Of a stretch of DNA of 30,784 nt, positions 2,768-14,697 are shown piece by piece. Below the pieces are notes generated by a model, which was not told the origin of the DNA, ran no database searches, and saw only the letters and a program-made list of their open reading frames with translations. Each line of letters starts with the position of its first letter. Position 1 is the first letter of the stretch. The stretch spans positions 1 through 30,784 of IMG/VR virus record IMGVR_UViG_3300028392_000213. One strand, 5' to 3'. Origin of the DNA: a virus. The translations under genes were made by a program, and so were the position numbers.

Positions 2768-3258
2768 TATAATCCCAATCTTTTGTAAGCATATGACCCA
2801 CGCACATCGTAGCCTAACTTGCGATGTATTTCCAAAAAACCCTCTTGATCACGCCGCATGGTGGTTGAACATACCACAGGCACACCACATGCTTGTGCCC
2901 AAGTCTCCCAAAGCACAATCATGCCTGTAACCAGCCGTAAACGTTGACGAACAGGCAGACTCGAGTCCACATGTGCCATTTTTGCACAAATCATCTCATC
3001 ATCAGACCACGGGGCACGTTCGCCACGGATAGCCCAGGTATAAGCGAGGATACGGTCAGTATCATGTTCTTTAGCGACTTTTAACAGTTCGGTTCGACTA
3101 TTGTAAAATTGTTGCACTGTGGCCAAGGTCAAGTTCCTGGCATAGGCCACAGGATCTGGTTGAAAGATTTGATCTATCTCTTGTTCAAAGTGTTGTTCAG
3201 CCATTCGCACCATGTGCGGCACATCTGTGCCTGCGGTTGATTCCCAAGTCCAGTTCAT
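2767..3258 (-). CDS. GNAT-like N-acetyltransferase-fold protein
   Basis: A 163-residue protein preceded by AAGGA about 8 bases before the ATG on the - strand. The N-terminus (VPHMVRMAEQHFEQEIDQIF) resembles the first helix of small phage GNAT proteins. The C-terminus, FLEIHRKLGYDVRGSYAYKRL, matches the GNAT motif-B pattern of an alpha-helix followed by RKLGY-v-G-yaykK. A strand near the middle (IVLWETWAQACGVPVVCSTT) fits the acetyl-CoA side of the fold, but the classical Q/R-x-x-G-x-G/A pyrophosphate loop is not obvious, so catalytic activity is uncertain. Phage GNAT-like proteins can modify host proteins or occur as virion parts. It lies on the opposite strand to the flanking late genes, as an accessory (moron-like) unit would. 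Confidence 0.6.
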   Translation of the reverse strand: MNWTWESTAGTDVPHMVRMAEQHFEQEIDQIFQPDPVAYARNLTLATVQQFYNSRTELLKVAKEHDTDRILAYTWAIRGERAPWSDDEMICAKMAHVDSSLPVRQRLRLVTGMIVLWETWAQACGVPVVCSTTMRRDQEGFLEIHRKLGYDVRGSYAYKRLGL

Positions 3259-3287
3259 AACTAATCCTTTCTCGTGCTTTACTTATA

Positions 3288-3295
3288 TATAAATA
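3288..3295 (+). promoter_or_regulatory. TATAAATA late-type promoter candidate for HNH gene
   Basis: TATAAATA matches the T4 late promoter octamer exactly. With T4-late spacing the start would be A3301, the first base of AGGAGAATACTT-ATG, giving a 12-nt leader that opens with the ribosome binding site. The other candidates in this window show similar geometry. No -35 is seen. Confidence 0.5.
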
Positions 3296-3312
3296 AGTCA
3301 AGGAGAATACTT

Positions 3313-3846
3313 ATGGGAAGACCCCGAATACCACTAACACCTGTGTATGACATATCAATCAACTGGGAATACTATCAACGTCATCAAGTGCCGGATGCCA
3401 ATCATTTGGGATGCACACACTGGGACGCAGGACAACACAAACAGGGCTATGGCATGACACATGCTGTGCGTCACGCAGACAATGCGGCCATCATGGTTAC
3501 TACGCATAGAGTAGCGGCCAGACTTAAATATCAACGAGCAATCTCCAGCCGGGAAATGGTGTTGCACTCCTGCTCCAACATGGCCTGTATGAATCCTGAT
3601 CACCTGTTTATTGGCGACAGATATGACATGCAGACCATTATGTTTCGGAACAAGCGACATCGCCATGGTGTGCCACCACGCAAGCCCACAGTGGAGGATA
3701 TTGTGGCCACATATGCCACCGAGGAATTGGAACGCATAGTTCACATGAGATTTACCGAAGTTGCCCGGCACCTGGATATCACAGTGAACCGAGCCAAGTA
3801 TATCAAAACAGCCAGTCACAGAGAACTGGTCAAAAGACAGCCATAA
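3313..3846 (+). CDS. HNH homing-type endonuclease
   Basis: The ATG at 3313 is chosen because AAGGAGA (3300-3306) sits 6 bases upstream; an earlier in-frame ATG at 3274 has no ribosome binding site. The 177-residue product has an HNH core: H65-R66 (TTHRVAARL), then LHSC-SNMACMNPDHL with H85, N94 and H97 as the HNH residues and C34, C87 and C92 as possible zinc ligands. This is the HNH_3 arrangement common in phage free-standing endonucleases. A basic C-terminal part (about residues 112-177) reads like a DNA-recognition helix-turn-helix: FTEVARHLDITVNRAKYIK. Such enzymes nick or cut DNA and often promote spread of their own locus. It is divergent from the GNAT-like gene and ends at a strong terminator. 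Confidence 0.85.
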   Translation: MGRPRIPLTPVYDISINWEYYQRHQVPDANHLGCTHWDAGQHKQGYGMTHAVRHADNAAIMVTTHRVAARLKYQRAISSREMVLHSCSNMACMNPDHLFIGDRYDMQTIMFRNKRHRHGVPPRKPTVEDIVATYATEELERIVHMRFTEVARHLDITVNRAKYIKTASHRELVKRQP

Positions 3847-3872
3847 AAAAGCCCCGACCCGGGGGCTTTTTT
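3845..3872. terminator. Bidirectional rho-independent terminator
   Basis: GCCCC (3851-3855) pairs with GGGGC (3862-3866), flanked by A-run 3845-3850 and T-run 3867-3872. Because an A-run precedes and a T-run follows, it can stop the HNH transcript on the + strand and a leftward transcript on the - strand, including the ncRNA candidate at 3847-4026. Confidence 0.85.
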
Positions 3873-4026
3873 ACGATCAAGGATGACAGCAGTGTGGGAC
3901 TCAATAACAGGAATGATGTAAACAATACACCAAGTTTTATAGGAGCCCCCAAAATGTCATTTCCGTGGAGCGGTCTGTGAGTCTCAGACTGCGTTTAATC
4001 ATATCTCTATGATCCACACTGCTGTC
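3847..4026 (-). ncRNA. Candidate structured small RNA with four-way junction
   Basis: A perfect 13-bp inverted repeat, GACAGCAGTGTGG (3885-3897) and its complement (4014-4026), closes about 142 bases. Inside are three arms. The first is a bulged 7-bp stem, GGAATGA 3910-3916 with TCA 3957-3959 plus TTCC 3961-3964. The second is an 8-bp stem, 3970-3977 with 3985-3992. The third is a 6-bp stem, ATCATA 3998-4003 with TATGAT 4008-4013, abutting the closing stem directly. Strand call: on the - strand CATAAATA (4039-4032) would place +1 at G4026, the first base of the closing stem, and the transcript would end at the terminator at 3845-3872, giving about 180 nt. Against this, the 8-bp stem has one G-T pair that is a wobble only in + strand RNA. 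An 8-codon + strand frame (3954-3980, AGGAG upstream) lies inside. The family was not recognised. Confidence 0.55.
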
Positions 4027-4031
4027 TATAA

Positions 4032-4039
4032 TATTTATG
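4032..4039 (-). promoter_or_regulatory. CATAAATA promoter candidate for the ncRNA
   Basis: Read on the - strand the bases are CATAAATA-TTATA-G, with the G at 4026. The spacing from the last A to the first base of the closing stem is the same as in T4 late promoters. TATTAT inside the same stretch could alternatively act as a sigma70 -10, but no good -35 lies 17 bases upstream. The identical octamer occurs at 7377-7384 on the + strand. Confidence 0.4.
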
Positions 4040-4049
4040 CAAGTGAAAA

Positions 4050-4075
4050 AAATCCCCACATTTCTGCAGGGATTT
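4050..4075 (+). other. 7-bp hairpin in a gene-free stretch
   Basis: AAATCCC (4050-4056) pairs with GGGATTT (4069-4075) around a 12-base loop. A weaker GTGCT/AGCAC pair lies at 4081-4108. Apart from these and the promoter candidates just before 4194, I see no gene in 4040-4193. Confidence 0.4.
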
Positions 4076-4154
4076 GGAAAGTGCTTTTATTATTGTTTGG
4101 TTTCAGCACTCAATACTTATCTACCAAAAGATTAGGAAAAAAGCATAATTCTGT

Positions 4155-4169
4155 TATACTTGCTAAATA
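4155..4169 (+). promoter_or_regulatory. Promoter region upstream of the 4194 gene
   Basis: TATACT at 4155-4160 resembles a sigma70 -10, with a poor -35 (TTAGGA, 4132-4137) 17 bases away. CTAAATA at 4163-4169 overlaps this leader and would place a late-type start at 4175, directly at the CAGGAAG ribosome-binding stretch. Which one is used cannot be told from sequence. Confidence 0.4.
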
Positions 4170-4193
4170 CTCCACAGGAAGTTAAAGTAAACA

Positions 4194-4550
4194 ATGATAT
4201 CCAATTTATCAGCAGAAAAAAACTATTCACGTGATCAGCAGGAAGTTCGTCAAAACTGGCGTATTTCAGACTGGGCTCGCAGGCATGGTTTATCATTGTC
4301 CAAAATACAACATCATCCCAACATCAGCAATGTGGCACTGCTACTGGAATTTGATGAGCACAGCATTTGGTTCTCCCCCAAGGATACTGAGATCTGGACT
4401 CATTGCTGGCAGTGGTGCTACCGATATGAACACGAACTTTCACTATATCACAGACGCAAATTATTATCAATCATAGACGGCATAGAATTCAGGCAACAAA
4501 GATTACGACACATTCAGGCAAGACAACAAAAAAAACTGGCCGCAGTATAA
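4194..4550 (+). CDS. Hypothetical protein, Trp/His/Arg-rich
   Basis: A 118-residue protein. The N-terminal part reads NWRISDWARRHGLSLSKIQHHP, which could form a helix-turn-helix (DWARRHGLSLSKIQ), so DNA binding is conceivable. The middle (IWFSPKDTEIWTHCWQWCYRYEHEL) is Trp-rich, and the C-terminal helix (RQQRLRHIQARQQKKLAAV) is strongly basic. The ribosome binding site is weak (AGGAAG about 13 bases before the ATG). It is a single gene between the two structured-RNA stretches and is not coupled to a neighbour. I do not recognise the family. Confidence 0.6.
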   Translation: MISNLSAEKNYSRDQQEVRQNWRISDWARRHGLSLSKIQHHPNISNVALLLEFDEHSIWFSPKDTEIWTHCWQWCYRYEHELSLYHRRKLLSIIDGIEFRQQRLRHIQARQQKKLAAV

Positions 4551-4560
4551 ACGAGTTGGA

Positions 4561-4930
4561 AAATGGGAGTAATAATGAGGCTAAAGGCTCCCGCCAGCCA
4601 AGTTCAACTTACGGACTTGGAACCACTGGAGTGCCGTAGAGTCCCCAGCAATGGGCCAGAGTATGCTATAGTCAAAGATCTCTGGGGTAACGCTCTGTAA
4701 GTCAATCCTTGCCCGTGAGGGACGACAGGTCAAAGTATTTTTAGAGAGAATATTTTGACCTGGCGTGAACAAGAGGTTGTAGGAAAGGTTCGATGTAGGC
4801 ATGTTTTTTTTGAACACCCTACATTTAGCCGTCCTATGGCTTCTTGGTCATGAGTTATAAACTTTATTTCTGAAATAGGCAACATTGAATGTCGCAAGAC
4901 ATTCAATAGATCTCGCAAGAGATCTTGAAA
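4561..4930 (+). ncRNA. Candidate structured RNA / long structured 5' leader rich in GNRA hairpins
   Basis: About 400 bases (4551-4958) hold no gene but a chain of hairpins. (1) GGGAGT 4565-4570 with GCTCCC 4587-4592. (2) CCAAGT 4598-4603 with ACTTGG 4615-4620. (3) CCCA-GCAA-TGGG 4644-4655. (4) CCAGAG 4656-4661 with CTCTGG 4680-4685, directly abutting (3). (5) CCC-GTGA-GGG 4712-4721. (6) A 14-bp stem 4726-4739 with 4749-4762, containing one G-T pair and a 9-base loop. (7) ATGTAGG 4793-4799 with CCTACAT 4818-4824. (8, 9) Two abutting GCAA hairpins at 4884-4907 and 4908-4925. Four of these loops are GNRA tetraloops. It ends about 30 bases before the ribosome binding site of the 4959 gene, so it may be an independent RNA or a regulatory leader. 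No Rfam family was recognised by eye. Confidence 0.55.
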
Positions 4931-4958
4931 TCTCATACAATAACACAAAGGAAACACA

Positions 4959-5180
4959 ATGCCACTCACACGTGAACAACTGATAACCATGGAAAATCTC
5001 ACAGGACGTCAATACTATCTCAATGGGCGTGCAAGACCCATTGATCGTCCAAGACCCTGGGCTGAATCTCAACGCCTGGACATCGAATCTCACACTCGTG
5101 ATTTGAGATCACGTGAGGTTCTGGGCAGTGGCATACGCAGTGTTCGATTACAACAACTGTTACGGGAAATTTCAGTATGA
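4959..5180 (+). CDS. Hypothetical small basic protein
   Basis: A 73-residue protein with a good ribosome binding site (AAAGGA about 8 bases before the ATG). It is Arg-rich (REQL, GRQYYLNGRARPIDRPRP, RDLRSREVLGSGIRSVRLQQLLREI), predicted helical at both ends, with no Cys and no membrane segment. It follows the structured leader 4561-4930 and overlaps the next gene by ATGA (5177-5180), so the two form a unit. The high positive charge would suit binding to nucleic acid, but that is only inference. Confidence 0.65.
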   Translation: MPLTREQLITMENLTGRQYYLNGRARPIDRPRPWAESQRLDIESHTRDLRSREVLGSGIRSVRLQQLLREISV

Positions 5181-5542
5181 ATGACGAATATATCTTGATA
5201 GACCGCCGTGAACAACCAGGTAAAAATGGTGTCACAATGTGGCGATTGACATTTCAGTGTGTGGGTGACAATGAGATTGTGGAAATGACAGTGGATCCCA
5301 CTTACAGAAACTTTCGAAAGCAAGGTTGGGATCATGTGGTGCGTCATGCATGCCCTTGGGGTGTTTATCGCGGACTCACGAGAACCGCAAGGCAAACCGC
5401 TTCGGGTGTGACAGTGGTGTCAGCCGACAGCCTGGCTTCGATCACACATCGCTGTGAGAGTCACGAACAGGCCCTGGAGTTGGCACAGGCTTCGTTGAAT
5501 CACAACTCTCCTGCGGAGCGGCTGGCCTCTCTGTTTGAATAA
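5177..5542 (+). CDS. Hypothetical protein coupled to the 4959 gene
   Basis: A 121-residue protein starting in an ATGA overlap. The N-terminal half alternates strands (EYILIDRREQ, VTMWRLTFQCVGDNEIVEMTVDP), and the C-terminal half is helical (HEQALELAQASLNHNSPAERLASLF). No motif was recognised. Its last 100 bases are antisense to a - strand frame ending at 5442, so the convergent pair may overlap. Confidence 0.65.
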   Translation: MNDEYILIDRREQPGKNGVTMWRLTFQCVGDNEIVEMTVDPTYRNFRKQGWDHVVRHACPWGVYRGLTRTARQTASGVTVVSADSLASITHRCESHEQALELAQASLNHNSPAERLASLFE

Positions 5543-5645
5543 CACGCTGAGCCAACCAGGCACGTGTGGTCCGATCCAGTTCATAAGGTTCCTGCCGCTC
5601 ACGCCAGGCACCACGTGACCAACGCCAGGTCGTTCTTGCTGTCAT
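5442..5645 (-). CDS. Possible small Arg-rich protein downstream of the 5648 gene
   Basis: A 67-codon frame whose ATG lies 2 bases after the stop of the upstream - strand gene, with a weak AGGG upstream. The first 40 residues (TTWRWSRGAWRERQEPYELD and following) are covered by no other gene, while the rest runs antisense through the end of the 5177-5542 gene. Close spacing favours a real coupled gene; the Pro/Ser-rich tail in the overlap favours chance. It may equally be a true N-terminus with an unconstrained tail. No function can be assigned. Confidence 0.4.
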   Translation of the reverse strand: MTARTTWRWSRGAWRERQEPYELDRTTRAWLAQRVIQTERPAAPQESCDSTKPVPTPGPVRDSHSDV

Positions 5646-5647
5646 GA

Positions 5648-6067
5648 TTACCCTACAACTCGTGGTTGATCACCCACAAAGATCTGATACTGATCATCAC
5701 GCGGTGTGATACCGGTTGTGGTGTCCAATTCAATCAGTTCCACACCACAGTGCTCAACATGCAAGGTTGCAGGATAGTGATAGATCAAGATTTGGTTCAC
5801 CACAGGAGCCAGGAGATCTCTACGAATGTCATCAGCGGCAATGCGTAGCACATACACCGGAGCCCAGGTCTTGGTTCTGTCTCTATATTCCTGATCACAT
5901 GTGACCGCGGCACCGGTCAGCACAATGTGTGTGCGACCCCGCATGGCCATTGTGTTGATGTCATATACAACTGAACCGGACACCTCAATTGTTCGGCTGT
6001 GTTCGAATTCAGAATACTCTTCGGGACTCAAGGCATGATAGTAATACTTTAGTTTGGGTGTCTTCAT
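5648..6067 (-). CDS. Hypothetical protein, possible ADP-ribosyltransferase-like fold
   Basis: A 139-residue protein divergent from the small-gene cluster. The N-terminus YYYHALSPEEYSEFEHSRTI followed by GRTHIVLTGAAV and a strand-turn APVYVLRIAADDIRRDLL resembles the order seen in ART/KptA-like proteins: an initial Tyr-His, a short helix, then strands leading to an acidic site. The later EHCGVELIELDT could supply a Glu. I cannot confirm the catalytic triad, so this fold guess is weak. Phage ART proteins modify host RNA polymerase or toxins in other systems. No good ribosome binding site is visible before the ATG at 6067. Three GTAATACTT sites surround the start, suggesting control. Confidence 0.65.
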   Translation of the reverse strand: MKTPKLKYYYHALSPEEYSEFEHSRTIEVSGSVVYDINTMAMRGRTHIVLTGAAVTCDQEYRDRTKTWAPVYVLRIAADDIRRDLLAPVVNQILIYHYPATLHVEHCGVELIELDTTTGITPRDDQYQIFVGDQPRVVG

Positions 6068-6115
6068 GGTAATACTTATTGCTACCCAAAAACCCTACAG
6101 TCAAAAGTAATACTT
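6041..6115. promoter_or_regulatory. Three GTAATACTT sites in a divergent control region
   Basis: GTAATACTT occurs at 6041-6049 (inside the start of the - strand gene), 6069-6077 and 6107-6115. The third is AAGTAATACTT, a near-palindrome (AAGTA-A-TACTT). A possible - strand promoter (TTGACT at 6104-6099, poor -10 CAATAA) overlaps sites two and three. This could be an operator for the gene at 5648-6067. Confidence 0.35.
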
Positions 6116-6125
6116 TGGCATTACA

Positions 6126-6154
6126 TTGACCGCTAATTCACATGATGCTATACT
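6126..6154 (+). promoter_or_regulatory. Sigma70 promoter for the 6190 gene
   Basis: TTGACC (6126-6131), a 17-base spacer, and TATACT (6149-6154) make five of six matches to each consensus hexamer. The leader after it (ATAGACTTACAAACAAACGC, then AAGGAGC) is nearly identical to that of the 6420 promoter. Confidence 0.8.
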
Positions 6155-6189
6155 ATAGACTTACAAACAAACGCTTCAAGGAGCATGAG

Positions 6190-6405
6190 ATGGCAAAAAT
6201 CAAGTCTGGCACTTTTATTCCATTGGCACAAACAAGTCAAGTCCTGTGTCCTAATATCAAAGAGGCATACAAAATCCAAGCCAATAATGATTGATTCCAA
6301 AGAACTTTTGGCATGTTGAAAGATGGTGGTCATGCTGTAAGTCCAGATGGCTCCTATCAAACATTGACCAAAGATGAATCACGCAACGGTTGGATTGTTG
6401 CATAA
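6190..6405 (+). pseudogene. Small gene interrupted by an in-frame TGA
   Basis: From the ATG at 6190 (AAGGAG upstream) the frame reads 34 codons beginning MAKIKSGTFIPLAQTSQVLC, then meets TGA at 6292-6294. It continues in the same frame for 36 codons (FQRTFGMLKDGGHAVSPDGS and on to NGWIVA) to TAA at 6405. Both halves look protein-like and keep one frame, so a single Trp codon TGG changed to TGA is the simplest reading. It may be a true pseudogene, a sequencing or assembly error, readthrough, or two tiny genes (a second start at 6319 lacks a ribosome binding site). It has its own strong promoter. Other genes here end in TGA, so the code has not been reassigned generally. Confidence 0.55.
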
Positions 6406-6419
6406 ACGCAACACACGGG

Positions 6420-6448
6420 TTGACCCCAAAATCACATTTTGTTATACT
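6420..6448 (+). promoter_or_regulatory. Sigma70 promoter for the small acidic protein cluster
   Basis: TTGACC (6420-6425), 17 bases, TATACT (6443-6448). It drives the chain of four small coupled genes from 6481 to 7301, which ends at the terminator at 7345-7369. Confidence 0.8.
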
Positions 6449-6480
6449 ATAGACTTACTAACAAACGCAAGGAGCGTGAG

Positions 6481-6762
6481 ATGACAACTTTTAAGATTAC
6501 CGTGCCTTATACCTATATGGTTAGTGGTGAGTATGAACATTTGGTTGATGAAGATCAAGTGTTGGATCATTTTGAAGTTGATAGCCTGGAGCAGATAGAT
6601 CCTGCGGCTTTGGAAGAGTATCTGCGTGAGGAAGCAGATGATCAAGCAGGATGGGAGATTACAGATGACCAGGTGTGTGAATTGGTGCGTGAGCAAAAAG
6701 GTCTTGAAACACAACCAGACGATATCACTATTGAAACTGAAGAACAAGAGGCCGCAGAATGA
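6481..6762 (+). CDS. Small highly acidic protein
   Basis: The start at 6481 is set by AAGGAG nine bases upstream; an earlier in-frame ATG at 6439 lies inside the promoter. The 93-residue product begins with a beta-rich stretch (TTFKITVPYTYMVSGEYEHL) and then is dominated by Asp and Glu, ending EEQEAAE. Such acidity is typical of phage DNA mimics and host-takeover inhibitors, but no family was recognised and this is inference. Its end is the first of four copies of the GAGGCCGCAGAATGA junction, through which the next gene starts in an ATGA overlap. Confidence 0.75.
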   Translation: MTTFKITVPYTYMVSGEYEHLVDEDQVLDHFEVDSLEQIDPAALEEYLREEADDQAGWEITDDQVCELVREQKGLETQPDDITIETEEQEAAE

Positions 6763-6938
6763 CCGCAAATAAACTACAATCCCTTATGGACCGTGCTTGG
6801 CGGTTGGCAGTAGCAGATTTTGACTACGATGAAGACAACTTGGCAAGTTATCAGCAACAAGATCTCAACGCTCGCCAGGATCGTTATTTTCAAGAACTTG
6901 GCGGTGATTTAGAAGAATACCGCGAAAAATGTTATTAA
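6759..6938 (+). CDS. Small acidic helical protein
   Basis: A 59-residue protein starting in the ATGA overlap at 6759. The sequence is helical and charged (LMDRAWRLAVADFDYDEDNL, then QQDLNARQDRYFQELGGDLE) and ends EYREKCY. It is the only member of the cluster that does not end in EAAE: its TAA comes three bases before the next GAGGCCGCAGAATGA copy, which is therefore non-coding here. The function is unknown. Confidence 0.65.
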   Translation: MTANKLQSLMDRAWRLAVADFDYDEDNLASYQQQDLNARQDRYFQELGGDLEEYREKCY

Positions 6939-6951
6939 AAGAGGCCGCAGA

Positions 6952-7140
6952 ATGAAATACACTATTTTTGGTCAATATCACAAGCGTATAGAGACTGTGA
7001 AATTTAGCACACTGAAAGAACTTGCCCAGTATCTCAACCAGGAGTATACGGTTGAAGACCTATGTTGCGTAGAAGACGCAGATGGGTTTGGATACAATGC
7101 TGTTGATTTGGTAGAACAAGAATTGGAGGCCGCAGAATGA
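6952..7140 (+). CDS. Small acidic protein with EAAE tail
   Basis: A 62-residue protein whose ATG lies inside the second junction copy, with GAGG seven bases upstream as ribosome binding site. It has a beta start (KYTIFGQYHKRIETVKF), a helix (TLKELAQYLNQEY), then an acidic region VEDLCCVEDADGFGYNAVDL, and ends EQELEAAE. The layout of strand, basic patch and acidic helix resembles the neighbour at 6481 in style but not in alignment. The function is unknown. Confidence 0.7.
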   Translation: MKYTIFGQYHKRIETVKFSTLKELAQYLNQEYTVEDLCCVEDADGFGYNAVDLVEQELEAAE

Positions 7141-7301
7141 AACACATTACTATTGGTGAGTTCCTGGATCATGTAAATGACCTGGCTTACGACAATCCAG
7201 ATTTGCTGAATATGTCATTGGATGGATTGTATGTTTATCTAAAAGGCTATGATGCTGAACCTATTGAAATTTCTACTAACGAACTGGAGGCCGCAGAATG
7301 A
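7137..7301 (+). CDS. Small acidic protein with EAAE tail, last of the cluster
   Basis: A 54-residue protein (MKHITIGEFLDHVNDLAYDN and on to STNELEAAE) starting in an ATGA overlap, with GGAGG seven bases upstream supplied by the third junction copy. It is acidic and mostly helical with a short strand YVYLKGYD. It ends in the fourth junction copy, whose ATG leads only to Met-Ile-stop, so nothing follows. The function is unknown. Confidence 0.65.
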   Translation: MKHITIGEFLDHVNDLAYDNPDLLNMSLDGLYVYLKGYDAEPIEISTNELEAAE

Positions 7302-7344
7302 TCTAAACCCCAGTGGCTGCTTGCAAGTTAGTCTGGAAGGTTTG

Positions 7345-7369
7345 AGCCCGGAATCCGCCGGGCTTTTTT
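7345..7369 (+). terminator. Rho-independent terminator after the small acidic gene cluster
   Basis: AGCCCGG (7345-7351) pairs with CCGGGCT (7358-7364) around a 6-base loop, followed by a T-run to 7369. It separates the sigma70-driven cluster from the packaging region. Confidence 0.9.
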
Positions 7370-7376
7370 GTGGCCG

Positions 7377-7384
7377 CATAAATA
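7377..7384 (+). promoter_or_regulatory. CATAAATA late-type promoter candidate
   Basis: It lies just after the terminator. T4-late spacing would place +1 at 7390, the A of the next gene's ATG, predicting a leaderless message. Confidence 0.45.
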
Positions 7385-7389
7385 TCCGT

Positions 7390-7761
7390 ATGACAACGGA
7401 AACAAAAACAAAAAAAACAATGCCTGCAAACCGGCAGCGGGCACCCTCACGCGGTGGCGCAAGACCAGGAGGCGGCCGCCCCAAAGGTTCTACCACCAAG
7501 ATCAAGATTGAAGACCTCATGGCACAGATTGAATTGCAGTCAGGAGAGAGTTATGATCAGTTGCTGGCCAAGAACTATGTGCTGGCCATTCACAGAGAAG
7601 ACTGGGGTGGCGTTAGAGACTACGACAAAGCCTTCATGAACAAGATGATTGCTGATCGCTCTGAGGTCACTGTGCTGGAATCTGAAGATGTGATTGCCAC
7701 CAAGCAGGCTGCCTTTGCCGCTGCCATAGCGCAAATCACCGGTATTGCCAGTAAAGACTAA
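7390..7761 (+). CDS. terS?: Putative small terminase subunit / DNA-packaging protein
   Basis: A 123-residue protein. Its Arg/Gly-rich N-terminus (RGGARPGGGRPKGSTTKIKI) is the motif found at the start of many phage small terminase subunits, followed by a helical body (EDLMAQIELQSGESYDQLLA and KAFMNKMIADRSEVTVLES). Small terminases recognise phage DNA and hand it to the large subunit. The large subunit gene is 2.6 kb downstream, which is unusual but not prohibitive; the 10076 gene is a rival candidate by position. I chose the ATG at 7390 because the frame upstream runs through the terminator. There is no ribosome binding site, consistent with a leaderless start at the CATAAATA motif; an alternative ATG lies at 7420. 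Confidence 0.6.
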   Translation: MTTETKTKKTMPANRQRAPSRGGARPGGGRPKGSTTKIKIEDLMAQIELQSGESYDQLLAKNYVLAIHREDWGGVRDYDKAFMNKMIADRSEVTVLESEDVIATKQAAFAAAIAQITGIASKD

Positions 7762-7764
7762 ATA
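7758..7764 (+). promoter_or_regulatory. CTAAATA late-type promoter candidate
   Basis: It overlaps the stop codon of the preceding gene. The predicted start at G7770 is the first base of GAGGACAAACACA-ATG, so the leader would begin with the ribosome binding site. Confidence 0.45.
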
Positions 7765-7782
7765 ACATAGAGGACAAACACA

Positions 7783-7968
7783 ATGCCATTAGACAAATCA
7801 AAATCGCCTAAAGCGTTCCAAAAGAACATCCGGACTGAAGTTGCCGCGGGCAAACCAGTAAAACAAGCAGTGGCCATTGCCTATGCTGTGGCAGGTAAGA
7901 AAAAGAAAACAGGCGAGAAGATTTCTGCCACAATGAAAAAAGACTCAATGTCTAAAGGAAAAATGTAA
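7783..7968 (+). CDS. Small basic Lys-rich phage protein
   Basis: A 61-residue protein with a GAGGA ribosome binding site. It begins MPLDKSKSPKAFQKNIRTEV and continues AAGKPVKQAVAIAYAVAGKK. Proteins with the pattern SPKAFKKN---E--AGKP-KQAVAIAY are widespread in phages, often near packaging genes (recall, no search); their function is not established. The C-terminus is very Lys-rich, so binding to DNA is plausible. The stop overlaps the next start by one base (TAATG). Confidence 0.75.
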   Translation: MPLDKSKSPKAFQKNIRTEVAAGKPVKQAVAIAYAVAGKKKKTGEKISATMKKDSMSKGKM

Positions 7969-8447
7969 TGAAAAATCGTTCTACACAATCAGATACCAAC
8001 ATGAACTTTGATGGCATGGAGCGTATGGCTCCCTCCAAGAGTTCTAAATACCAGACCAACACATGGTCAGGTCACATGAATGATGGTCGTGAAGTCAACA
8101 TGGGTCGTGGTCCTACCAAGGGCAACATGGGCTGTGGCCGGCCAGGCAAGCCCGGTGCAATGGCCAGTGTGACCAAAGACTCATTCCGTGCCGCACCAAC
8201 TGATGCATTGCCTTCCAGCATGAAGATCAAAAACCCAGACTACATCAATGGTGGTGCACAGGTTCGCACACCTGGTGGCACAAGGTCATGGGATCCCAAA
8301 GCCGGACAGAACTATGCAGGCAACCCAGACCGGATCCGCATGGGACAAAGCGGTGGTGGTAGTTTCAATCGTGAAACAGCAGGCAAGACACCCTCAACCA
8401 GTCGTGGCGAAACCAACTTCAACTATGGCCCCAAGAGCCAATATTAA
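7968..8447 (+). CDS. Hypothetical low-complexity Gly/Asn/Ser-rich protein with GRGPTKGN motif
   Basis: A 159-residue protein, basic and apparently largely disordered (rich in Gly, Asn, Ser, Thr, Lys). It contains NMGRGPTKGNMG at about residues 44-55, closely resembling NVGRGPTRGNAG and NVKRGPTTGN in the gene at 8816. It ends in an aromatic tail, NFNYGPKSQY, and the 8816 protein likewise ends GATSGY. Translational coupling (TAATG) links it to the Lys-rich protein. It may be a minor virion or DNA-condensing protein, but this is inference. Confidence 0.65.
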   Translation: MKNRSTQSDTNMNFDGMERMAPSKSSKYQTNTWSGHMNDGREVNMGRGPTKGNMGCGRPGKPGAMASVTKDSFRAAPTDALPSSMKIKNPDYINGGAQVRTPGGTRSWDPKAGQNYAGNPDRIRMGQSGGGSFNRETAGKTPSTSRGETNFNYGPKSQY

Positions 8448-10079: not shown

Positions 10080-10387
10080 GCCAAGAACTAAGAGACGCCA
10101 CCATACATGCCGCAGTAGAACAACGGCGTGCAAGAGATGTCAAGATCATGCAAGGCATCAATGCGGCACACCGTGAGGCCTTTGTGGTTCGCTTGCCTGG
10201 ACAGATTGAACACTCAATGCGACTGATTGCTGAAAGATTGATTGCCTGCCTGGCCAAGCCGGAAGGCTGCCACCTGGACCAACCAGACACCTGGCCTGCC
10301 TCTGCTGATGACATTCACAGTCTCACACAGGCTCTATGGCAACTGGAGCAACTGCGTGAACACTGGCCCATTCCTGAGGCCCTATAA
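10076..10387 (+). CDS. Helical protein immediately upstream of large terminase (alternative small subunit candidate)
   Basis: A 103-residue protein starting at GTG in a GTGA overlap and ending TAATG at the start of the large terminase. It is almost fully alpha-helical (ELRDATIHAAVEQRRARDVK, QIEHSMRLIAERLIACL, DDIHSLTQALWQLEQLREHW). The size, helical content and direct coupling to the large subunit are what one expects of a small terminase subunit, but there is no recognisable DNA-binding motif. Compare the gene at 7390, which has the motif but not the position. Confidence 0.65.
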   Translation: MSQELRDATIHAAVEQRRARDVKIMQGINAAHREAFVVRLPGQIEHSMRLIAERLIACLAKPEGCHLDQPDTWPASADDIHSLTQALWQLEQLREHWPIPEAL

Positions 10388-11997
10388 TGCTGGATCCAGG
10401 CGTGTTGATGCGCAGGGCCATCCGGTATGTGTGTGAACAAAACAACCTCAAGCCTGACAGTCTCTCCCAGTTTGATCATGCTACACAAGAACACTTTAGA
10501 GATCTTGCTATCGAAGTGGCGGATCACATGCGGCACAATCAATTGGAATACTTCAGACCATTTGATCACCAGCGTGAGTTCTTTCAGACCCAGAGTGATC
10601 GTAGAGGTATCCTGGCAGCCAACCGAATTGGCAAAACAGTTTCAACCTGCTATGAAACTGCCATGCATCTAACTGGTCGCTATCCTGACTGGTGGGTGGG
10701 CAAACGCTACAACAAACCAATAACTGTGATGGTTGCTGGTGAAGGTTGGAGTCAAGTTGCCCTGGTGCTACAGAATGAACTGTTGGGTGCTCCAGACATC
10801 AAACAGAGTGATTCATTAGGCACAGGAGCCATACCGCGTGACTGCATCATTAGAGACACCATGCGGTCGGATGGGGCCAACTGTATTGGTGTTGAGATAC
10901 GTCACTCCTCGGGAGGCAAGAGTTATTTGCTGTTTGCTAACTACACACAAGAGGTGCGACAACTGCAGGGTTTCAAATTGGACCTGGCTGTGTTTGATGA
11001 GCAGCCACCAGATGATTTCTTTTCAGAAATTGTCACACGCACTGCTACCACACAGGGCATGATCCTGTGCAGTTTCACACCGCTAAAAGGATTGAATGGC
11101 CTGGTATCAAAATTCTGGAATCGTGAACAGGGTTACGATTACATTCGTGTGTCTTGGGACGATGTGCCTGAGTATGATCTTTGGCACGAACCCTTTCTCT
11201 TGGCACACACGCGACAGCAATTGGAACGTGATTACCTGCCGCACGAGCGAGAGGCTCGCATGCAAGGCCGTCCAATCATGGGCAAGGGTGCGGTGTTTCA
11301 GATCCGATCCTGGCCTGTCTATACCACGGGCGACTATGACTTCAGCCGCATGCCTCAAATACAGAGAGTCATTGCTCTGGACCTGGGCCTTGTGAATGAC
11401 AAAACTGTGATCAGTTTGATGTATTGGGAACCACGCGAACGCGAAGCCTGGCTGCATCGTCAGATTGTGGTGCAAGGAGTTGAAGAAGCAGTGCCCACGC
11501 AATACATCAATCATCTCTTGAGACCCGAAGTGTATGGCACACCCATTGTGTTGCCAGCAGATGCCTCCACGCCCGGACGCTACACCATGAGTTCAACATC
11601 AATCCGCGAACTGTTTGAACAGTATGAACTCAATGTGATCGAAGGTGCCATAATGAACCCACCAGATGCACAAGGACGCAGAACCAACCACAAGAGTTAT
11701 GGCATAAACCAAATGCGACAGATGCTGGAAGTGGGCGTGTTGCATGTGAATGAGAACTGCGTGGACTTCTTGAGAGAAGCCTCCAACTACTATGTGGACA
11801 CACAAGGCAGATTCTCGGATCCGGATGACTGTATTGATTCTGCTCGTTACGCACTGTTGGCCTGCTTGCAAGGCATTGCCGAACCCTGGGATGACAAGAG
11901 CCCACAACAACGCATGGCCGCACAGCGTGATCGCTATGTGAAGTTTGATGATTCCAACAAGCCGTCATGGAAGCGTGCCTTCAACGCACAAGGATAA
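10387..11997 (+). CDS. terL: Terminase large subunit (DNA-packaging ATPase/nuclease)
   Basis: A 536-residue protein. The N-terminal ATPase domain has a variant Walker A, GILAANRIGKT (residues 74-84), and Walker B LAVFDEQ with D204-E205, followed by the coupling motif ILCSFTPLKG. The C-terminal RNase-H-like nuclease has a first acidic strand VIALDLGLVND (D332) and a last acidic cluster DDCIDSARYA (D480, D481, D484). It cuts concatemeric DNA and pumps it through the portal using ATP. The length is normal for the family. The start overlaps the previous stop (TAATG). All motifs expected for activity are present. Confidence 0.95.
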   Translation: MLDPGVLMRRAIRYVCEQNNLKPDSLSQFDHATQEHFRDLAIEVADHMRHNQLEYFRPFDHQREFFQTQSDRRGILAANRIGKTVSTCYETAMHLTGRYPDWWVGKRYNKPITVMVAGEGWSQVALVLQNELLGAPDIKQSDSLGTGAIPRDCIIRDTMRSDGANCIGVEIRHSSGGKSYLLFANYTQEVRQLQGFKLDLAVFDEQPPDDFFSEIVTRTATTQGMILCSFTPLKGLNGLVSKFWNREQGYDYIRVSWDDVPEYDLWHEPFLLAHTRQQLERDYLPHEREARMQGRPIMGKGAVFQIRSWPVYTTGDYDFSRMPQIQRVIALDLGLVNDKTVISLMYWEPREREAWLHRQIVVQGVEEAVPTQYINHLLRPEVYGTPIVLPADASTPGRYTMSSTSIRELFEQYELNVIEGAIMNPPDAQGRRTNHKSYGINQMRQMLEVGVLHVNENCVDFLREASNYYVDTQGRFSDPDDCIDSARYALLACLQGIAEPWDDKSPQQRMAAQRDRYVKFDDSNKPSWKRAFNAQG

Positions 11998-12432: not shown

Positions 12433-14697
12433 GTGCTTGACCTAAAAAATATTACGATTGACCGTATCAATCAAAACCGACGAATCAATTCAAACTTTGT
12501 GCGTATGAAGAACCTGATGGATGTGAAAATGGCATCCTATCTACGCTATCTGGGCACCAAAAACGCCATCAACAGAGCCAGTGATTACCACTACTTGTGC
12601 CTGGCAGTTACCGACTCCACAGCACCGGTCAACGGCATTGACTATATTCACCCTTCAGTCAAACCAGTGGTGGATTACGCTACCGCAGTTATCACCAAAG
12701 GCCTGGTGCCCAACGGTGAAGTCAACTTTGAATTTGTGGCTGATGATGAAGGTGATGAATACGCCGCACGACAGGCCTCAGAAATGGTGTCGGCAGTGAT
12801 CAATGAACAAAACGATCCGCACTTTATCCTGGAACGCTGGGTCATGGATGCTGCCATGCACAAGAATGGCATGATGATGATCATGCCTGTGCGTGAACCC
12901 ATCACAAGGTATGTGGAAACACAGGGCACACAAGATCAACTGCGAGCCTTTGAACAACAGGCAGCCGATGGCGGCCTCACAGCCCTACGCCAAACACGAC
13001 GTCGCACCTCAGTAGATTTGCAAAAGGTCATGGCCGAAGTGCAACAACTCATGGGCGAACATCAGCAAGAACAAGTGCAAGGCATGATTGACCAGCACAT
13101 TGCCAGCCTGGGCGAAGAACAAGATCAGGATGCTGTCATGGCTGACCAGCAGGCCATAGACATTGAGGGACAAGAAGATATTCTCAACGAAGCCATTGCT
13201 CGCAACACCATCTACACTGCCAAATACAAACTCACAGGCTACAACCTACGCATCAAGTTCAACCCAATTGCACAGCACTACTGGATCTGTGATCCCACAG
13301 TGGCTGAAATGCGTGACCAACCCTTCTGCGGCTACTATGATCCAATGACCATTCAAGAAGCAGTAGAACTGTATCCTGGCATTGACCTGGAAGAATTTGC
13401 TCGCCACGCTGAATACAACATGAACGGTGCTTACCAAGCAGGTTCAGTCTTGAACAACTTGGCCATTCACGCACGTGACTCAGTGCCTGTGATGGGTATA
13501 CCTGTGAACTCGGCAGCCTCTGCTGATCCTTATTCACGCCAGGTATCAATTGTGACTGTATGGAACAAGTATGACATCGACGGTGATGGTGAACTGGAAC
13601 TGGTTGAATTGATCTATTCTGGCACCTACATCATATCAGCACGTGAAGTGGAATTTATCCCAGTGGCCAACATGTGTCCCAAGCCACTACCTGGCAACTT
13701 CTATGGCATGAGCATTGCTGAGAGTGTGATCCCCATGCAGGAATACAACACCTCAGCCGCCCGTGCAGAAATCCAACTGGGCCTGCTCACAGCCACGCCC
13801 CGCATTGGTGTCAAACCAGACCGCCTGGACTTTGAAATGTTGCAGGATGGTGAATCAGCAATCTTTATCTTGGATTCAAAATTTGATCCTACCAAAGACA
13901 TCTATCAACTGCCTCCGCCCTCGGGCAACCTCCAATTCCTGGAAGTGGCCATGAACCGTATTCAGCAGGACACCATGGCCATGGTAGGTATGACCACACC
14001 TTCAGACGTGTTCAATCCCGAAGTCATGAGTCCAGGCAATTCAGGTATCAAACTGCAGATGGCTCTCACGCCCAACCAGATCATTCAAGACAACACAGTG
14101 CGTAATGCCGCTGATGGCTTGAAAGAAGCCATTTGGTTGGTATGGCGAACACTCATACAGTATGGTGATGACTATGGTGTCAAGCGTCTGGCACAACAAT
14201 ACCACCCAGAAAAGAAACCGGTGTTCATGGACTATGAATCCTGGGACGACATGAACTTCTGTGATCGTCATCACATTCAAACTGAATTGGCATTAGGCAT
14301 GATGAGTCAAGAAAACGCCCTGGGTCGCCAGCAGATCATCCAGAAATGTCAGCAGGACCTGTATCAAACAGTGCAAGGCATGGCTTCAGCAGGCACACTC
14401 AATCCTGACGTTTACAAAAAGGTCAAGAAGCCCTTTGCTGACACCCTGTATGTGCTGGGTGTGAAAGACTGTGACGCTTACTTGCCGTCGGATGCAGAAG
14501 TGGTGGCCATGGTCAAGGCTGGTCAAGAGGCTGCCAAGAACCGCGAACCTTCAGCAGAAGACAAGAAACGCCTGGCCGATGCAGGATTATCACAGGCCAG
14601 AACCGAACAGATCAAGGCCGAGATACAAGGATCCGATTCCCAATCTCAACTGGACTACATGGCAGTGGCAGCAGGCAACCCCAAGGTTTACAACTAA
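12433..14697 (+). CDS. Portal protein
   Basis: A 754-residue protein starting at GTG with GAGGAAA six bases upstream. The pattern matches large podovirus (P22-like) portals: an N-terminal helical segment followed by IHPSVKPVVDYATAVITKGL, then an acidic stretch VADDEGDEYAARQASEMVSA, the strand YDIDGDGELELVELIYSG, the crown entry NFYGMSIAESVIPMQEYNTS, and a C-terminal Gln/Lys helical barrel. An insertion of Gln/Glu-rich coiled coil (about residues 175-260) is notable. The dodecameric portal sits at one capsid vertex, is the channel for DNA and docks the terminase. It is followed by a small gene and the scaffold. Confidence 0.9.
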   Translation: MLDLKNITIDRINQNRRINSNFVRMKNLMDVKMASYLRYLGTKNAINRASDYHYLCLAVTDSTAPVNGIDYIHPSVKPVVDYATAVITKGLVPNGEVNFEFVADDEGDEYAARQASEMVSAVINEQNDPHFILERWVMDAAMHKNGMMMIMPVREPITRYVETQGTQDQLRAFEQQAADGGLTALRQTRRRTSVDLQKVMAEVQQLMGEHQQEQVQGMIDQHIASLGEEQDQDAVMADQQAIDIEGQEDILNEAIARNTIYTAKYKLTGYNLRIKFNPIAQHYWICDPTVAEMRDQPFCGYYDPMTIQEAVELYPGIDLEEFARHAEYNMNGAYQAGSVLNNLAIHARDSVPVMGIPVNSAASADPYSRQVSIVTVWNKYDIDGDGELELVELIYSGTYIISAREVEFIPVANMCPKPLPGNFYGMSIAESVIPMQEYNTSAARAEIQLGLLTATPRIGVKPDRLDFEMLQDGESAIFILDSKFDPTKDIYQLPPPSGNLQFLEVAMNRIQQDTMAMVGMTTPSDVFNPEVMSPGNSGIKLQMALTPNQIIQDNTVRNAADGLKEAIWLVWRTLIQYGDDYGVKRLAQQYHPEKKPVFMDYESWDDMNFCDRHHIQTELALGMMSQENALGRQQIIQKCQQDLYQTVQGMASAGTLNPDVYKKVKKPFADTLYVLGVKDCDAYLPSDAEVVAMVKAGQEAAKNREPSAEDKKRLADAGLSQARTEQIKAEIQGSDSQSQLDYMAVAAGNPKVYN

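Follow-up and report, generated by a model that had tools for sequence, protein, structure and literature searches.

The window analysed here, meaning the whole stretch of 30,784 bases, is a linear virus record from an uncultured water phage, with a terminase gene at 10387-11997 and a portal gene at 12433-14697. The stretch 4561-4930 is flanked by genes for proteins of 118 aa and 73 aa, the latter followed by a 121-aa gene (Table 1). Neither the 73-aa nor the 121-aa protein significantly matched a Pfam or PHROGs family, and the 118-aa protein likewise has no such family and no usable fold match. On the + strand of the window the motif TAAATA occurs 11 times (4.6 expected), several times just 5' of genes; the instances just upstream of genes at 3290, 4164, 7379, 7759, 12406 and 15109 resemble T4-type late promoters. 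None stands directly before the RNA described below. The one at 4164 precedes the 118-aa gene, and transcription of the RNA probably starts in the region 4158-4193, from which we infer that the RNA and the 118-aa gene would lie on one transcript. As no terminator was found after the last hairpin, T2, the RNA may belong to a longer mRNA.

Table 1. Features of the window around the structured RNA; sequences of the two homologous loci follow those of the window.
Feature	Position	Strand	Description
TAAATA promoter-like element and ribosome-binding region	4158-4193	+	TAAATA at 4164; precedes the 118-aa gene
118-aa protein gene	4194-4550	+	small, basic (pI 9.5), predicted all-helical; directly upstream of the RNA
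H1	4565-4592	+	covarying stem GGGAGU/GCUCCC; homologues CGGUC/GACCG, GGAUC/GAUCC; loop with invariant GGCUAAAGG
P2	4594-4629	+	outer CCAG/CUGG (homologues CCUG/CAGG, CUCA/UGAG), inner CCAAGU/ACUUGG
Pseudoknot	4607-4702	+	ACUUAC (4607-4612)/GUAAGU (4697-4702); homologues ACUGACAC/GUGUUGGU, ACUUACAC/GUGUAAGU
Invariant block GAGUGCCGU	4629-4637	+	between P2 and P4
P4	4638-4696	+	AGAGU/GCUCU (homologues CAGAU/AUCUG, GGAGA/UCUCU); encloses P5 and H6
P5	4644-4655	+	CCCA-GCAA-UGGG; same position in homologues, but loop and length vary
H6	4656-4685	+	CCAGAG/CUCUGG; homologues UAGUGAG/CUCACUA, GGCGAG/CUCGCC
CCC-GUGA-GGG hairpin	4712-4721	+	window only, absent in homologues
17-bp hairpin	~4727-4763	+	minimum-energy fold; window only
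Long interrupted hairpin	4764-4855	+	three of its helices show covariation across the three phages
Twin terminal hairpins T1, T2	4884-4925	+	GCAA loops; the different RNA of sister phages has a similar pair at its end
Downstream genes, 73 aa (4959-5180) and 121 aa (5177-5542)	4959-5542	+	

The + strand of 4561-4930 has a folding energy of -141.1 kcal/mol, compared with -96.1 kcal/mol in shuffles (z -8.6), and the - strand gives a z-score of -3.3; for the wider interval 4551-4958 the values are -7.5 and -2.8. When the whole window was scanned on both strands, the three best + strand stretches (z -8.35, -5.21 and -5.03) all fell in this area, the next best one reached -3.38, and no other part of the 30.8 kb came near 4561-4930. 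The dense hairpins reported in the initial annotation, which had proposed a comparison with shuffled sequence, are thereby confirmed, and the directly abutting stems that it placed at 4644-4685 and 4884-4925 are real. The same holds for its four GNRA tetraloops, which cap hairpins at 4644-4655, 4884-4907 and 4908-4925 (GCAA) and at 4712-4721 (GTGA): shuffled sequences carry a mean of 0.26 GNRA hairpins and none of 1000 reached four. The stretch was also rightly called gene-free, as the forward open reading frame across it comprises 41 aa (from 4575) and this frame is not kept in homologues.

A terminase search yielded 80 loci of one phage clade, and an alignment built from three homologues of the 121-aa protein matched 16 loci. 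Two loci, L127 and L128, carry sequence upstream of the 121-aa family gene that can be aligned with the window RNA; as L128 is also present as L129 and L130, the distinct sequences number three. When two of the conserved blocks were used as a pattern against 2.9 million viral contigs, only the L127 and L128 records were found besides chance matches. Scans with single proteins (118-aa, 121-aa and HNH) gave no relatives, blastn against 50,697 phage records gave no relative of the window RNA but short chance matches only, and the family was found in none of 229 betaproteobacterial genomes, in a search that had no positive control.

All three sequences can form twelve helices, the pseudoknot among them; the conserved structure spans 4565-4925, and all pairs are standard except for one interrupted stem in L127. 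The stems are thus kept in homologues, as the initial annotation had asked of a genuine RNA. In the 5' domain, which comprises six helices, 97.7% of the pair cells hold in a structure-blind MAFFT alignment of the three sequences and 16 of 31 pairs show a double-sided change, values that none of 500 shuffles matched; when the partners were slid by one to three columns as a control, pairing dropped to 28-44%. Compensatory changes between independent phages are found in P2, P4, H6 and the pseudoknot, and in P4 all five pairs are altered on both sides among the three phages. The pseudoknot is formed by the loop of P2, which carries its 5' strand, and the strand immediately 3' of P4. Conservation outside the stems is concentrated in GGCUAAAGG in H1, GAGUGCCGU after P2 and an 18-nt loop of H6, UANRCUAUAGUCAAAGRU. 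A profile made from L127 and L128 alone, with the window left out, found window 4572-4698 as its sole hit in 2.6 Mb (E 1.9e-9). RNAalifold, applied to the full-length alignment, returned a mixed structure in which one long-range helix was doubtful; the helices given here were set by hand and then tested.

The RNA domain is about 64-69% identical among the phages, compared with 23-39% for the 118-aa protein. Reading frames across the 5' domain differ among the three phages and break, and what is conserved is therefore an RNA. The 118-aa reading frame of L127 and L128 extends into the 5' domain, while the window gene ends before the RNA; some of the conservation there could thus reflect coding as well, despite the difference in frame. 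The L127 and L128 RNAs, folded alone, give z-scores of -3.4 and -4.8, which are less extreme than that of the window and show no strand bias. As neither homologue has a GNRA hairpin, these loops, on which the initial annotation had placed weight, are not supported as the key feature. Its broader suggestion of an ornate phage RNA is supported by the covarying stems and the pseudoknot of the homologues: the window encodes a genuine phage RNA that is conserved and pseudoknotted and whose family is absent from Rfam. Several of the hairpins are perfect palindromes and the - strand too folds better than shuffled sequence, as might be expected of an element that works at the DNA level, through cruciforms or as a set of binding sites (an origin or a packaging site, for instance). 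We consider this extremely unlikely, because in the window folding is far stronger on the + strand than on the - strand, G-U pairs occur in the conserved helices H1 and P4 and in the L127 pseudoknot, and conserved loops and a pseudoknot are features of RNA.

The RNA is paired exclusively with the 118-aa gene. In L127 and L128 a homologue of this gene immediately precedes the RNA, and when 50 records were searched with a profile of the protein, only 3 matched, all of them carrying the RNA. Such an exclusive link between a small basic protein and a structured RNA could also be read as a toxin-antitoxin-like or anti-defence pair of the type III kind, with the RNA as partner of the protein. This appears very unlikely, as the 118-aa protein lacks a Pfam or PHROGs toxin family and a fold match, type III antitoxins are tandem repeats of which the window RNA has none, and the protein gene lies upstream and not downstream of the RNA.

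No Rfam family matched the window at gathering scores, and no informative match was seen around the region at E 10. The initial annotation had named known large RNAs and group I introns as candidates; Rfam, which includes GOLLD, ROOL and group I introns, thus does not bear this out, and neither the group I and II intron models nor the GOLLD and ROOL covariance models matched the window. A catalytic RNA, either a degenerate self-splicing intron or a novel self-cleaving ribozyme, might be suspected from the pseudoknotted core with its invariant loops and from the nearby HNH endonuclease gene (3274-3846). However, no intron or ribozyme model of Rfam matched even at E 10, no HNH homologue was found in L127 or L128 and no split gene surrounds the RNA, and we regard a catalytic role as very improbable. 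GOLLD and ROOL are large, elaborate and pseudoknotted phage ncRNAs of unknown function (PMC12286853). They measure about 660 and over 800 nt and often lie near tRNA islands (PMC12286853), whereas the window RNA has about 360 nt and the 30.8-kb window contains no tRNA gene; nearby tRNAs are usual though not universal for GOLLD and ROOL. A homo-oligomeric nanocage is a further feature of these two RNAs. The abundant ncRNA of ICP1 and the lncRNAs of phage K are likewise intergenic phage RNAs of unknown role outside known families (PMC7567579, PMC9241854); they are known from RNA-seq, whereas the window RNA is predicted from DNA, and for a sequence relation the comparison covered the blastn search of the 50,697 phage records with its short chance matches. 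No description of the window RNA was found in the open-access literature.

In eight sister phages (L124, L126, L131, L134, L135, L038, L065 and L011) this slot is occupied by another RNA, about 450 nt long. All of these except L134 contain the exact hairpin CCGUUCUGAUGUGUGACGG, a motif that was also traced to at least 120 viral contigs and to 35 loci in bacterial genomes, mostly of Polynucleobacter, Limnohabitans and Rhodobacteraceae. In all 27 members that were aligned, a seven-pair helix has standard pairs throughout, and each of its positions shows two to five pair types. A model built from these 27 members, R3, hit all 80 viral sources given to it, a few of them by the hairpin alone, and 34 of 35 genome loci; one of its helices is two columns off, which lowers but does not create scores. 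Of 83 non-redundant loci, 41 have TAAATA 5' of this RNA, compared with 11.9 expected; among genome loci the count is 23 of 25. A first reading that this family is absent from Rfam was overturned by its T4-like members, which reach the gathering score for Polynucleobacter-1 (RF01718), while other members do not. The slot RNA of the sister phages is thus best regarded as a large extension of Rfam's Polynucleobacter-1 RNA, whose function is unknown (Weinberg et al. 2010, PMC2864571). Further members (L148-L302, e.g. L272:4675-5260 and L160:3074-3241) come from podovirus-like and T4-like water phages and from proteobacterial genomes, where they lie near tyrosine-integrase-like and DUF6641 genes; Polynucleobacter sinensis has three copies. 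For two extended RNAs that were tried, blastn found no relative among the 50,697 phages.

The window RNA and the extended Polynucleobacter-1 RNA share the slot, with the 121-aa family gene after it, and both have a core with a loop-to-strand pairing, but they show no sequence or covariance-model relation, and their helix order and conserved loops differ. Neither the window RNA nor L128 matches RF01718 (for the window RNA even at E 10), R3 run unfiltered on the window RNA gave at best 3 bits, the CCGUUCUGAUGUGUGACGG hairpin is absent from window 3000-8000, and the model of the window family, R2, matches none of 42 Polynucleobacter-1-type loci. The two RNAs were never found together in 50 records, so that one replaces the other. 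Within this phage clade both end in closely similar twin hairpins, the T1/T2 region being 90% identical to the twin hairpins of L124 over 52 nt. The idea that such hairpins close all extended Polynucleobacter-1 RNAs was given up after a strict test, in which 7 of 73 had them compared with 2 upstream and 0 in shuffled sequence; they are common only in this clade. In L122:1966-2460, L123:302-745, L125:1650-1985 and L136:1932-2470 the slot before the 121-aa family gene contains hairpin-rich non-coding sequences (fold z -1.9 to -4.7 on the + strand), which could be aligned to neither RNA. In some sister phages (L065:3600-2930, L069:5780-4503) the RNA has been inverted along with genes beside it, and the slot therefore seems to move as a cassette.

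The main rival to a trans-acting RNA is an element acting in cis, as a 3' UTR of the 118-aa mRNA or a 5' leader of the genes at 4959-5542, in the manner of a riboswitch, a protein-autoregulated element or an element of RNA stability. The RNA fits tightly between genes of the same strand, always directly behind the 118-aa gene, with T2 ending only about 30 nt before the start codon at 4959 and with no terminator after it. In the sister phages found through the 121-aa family it is this family that follows the slot and not the 73-aa gene. The downstream gene differs among the three phages, however: L127 and L128 lack the first gene of the 4959-5542 pair and their second gene has a TAAATA of its own between the RNA and its start codon. 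This weakens the leader of the pair, which the initial annotation had offered besides an independent RNA, and leaves some room for a cis role in the window itself. As no terminator resembling an expression platform was seen, and as size and pseudoknot go beyond those of usual leaders, we think that a cis element is unlikely, though the most serious competitor.

We therefore favor, with a probability of roughly 0.6, the view that 4565-4925 (+) encodes a large, structured ncRNA that belongs to a new family of phage RNAs and acts in trans, probably together with the adjacent 118-aa protein. The 5' domain of about 140 nt would form a compact pseudoknotted fold in which H6 displays its invariant loop, and the 3' domain would consist of the long hairpin, a linker and the two terminal hairpins. 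The RNA would arise from the transcript of the 118-aa gene, be released or used as a stable RNA, and act as RNA or as RNA-protein complex, with the basic 118-aa protein as its likeliest partner. Its role may equal that of the unrelated extended Polynucleobacter-1-type RNA in the same slot of sister phages. The slot could even be a hypervariable RNA cassette of this water-borne clade, in which unrelated ornate RNAs, placed behind similar twin hairpins, are rapidly swapped like anti-defence genes and serve as RNA-based factors of counter-defence or host takeover, the window RNA in complex with the 118-aa protein; the candidates are the families of the window RNA and of the extended Polynucleobacter-1 RNA, and perhaps the further unaligned types. 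This wider proposal is speculative and rather doubtful. The window RNA adds a further family to the large phage ncRNAs. Its pseudoknotted core is compact, a protein gene accompanies it exclusively, and the sister phages have an RNA that may be its functional equivalent. GOLLD and ROOL are also without known function, and here the neighbour and the equivalent make protein binding and gene replacement directly testable. Polynucleobacter-1, known as a model of 141 nt, belongs to a family of about 450 nt that is present in over a hundred viral contigs and dozens of proteobacterial genomes.

A second structured non-coding stretch lies at window 4037-3847 (-) and is apparently transcribed leftwards, with a TAAATA element at 4037, an intrinsic terminator at 3864-3852 and a long-range stem GACAGCAGUG/CACUGCUGUC with a conserved GAUUAAACGCAGUC; this RNA is conserved in L036 and L037, after an HNH gene. 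Repeated leader segments (ACAAACGC..AGGAGC) and repeated GAGGCCGCAGAATGA junctions are found between small genes at window 6146-6193, 6419-6480, 7076-7140 and 7255-7300.
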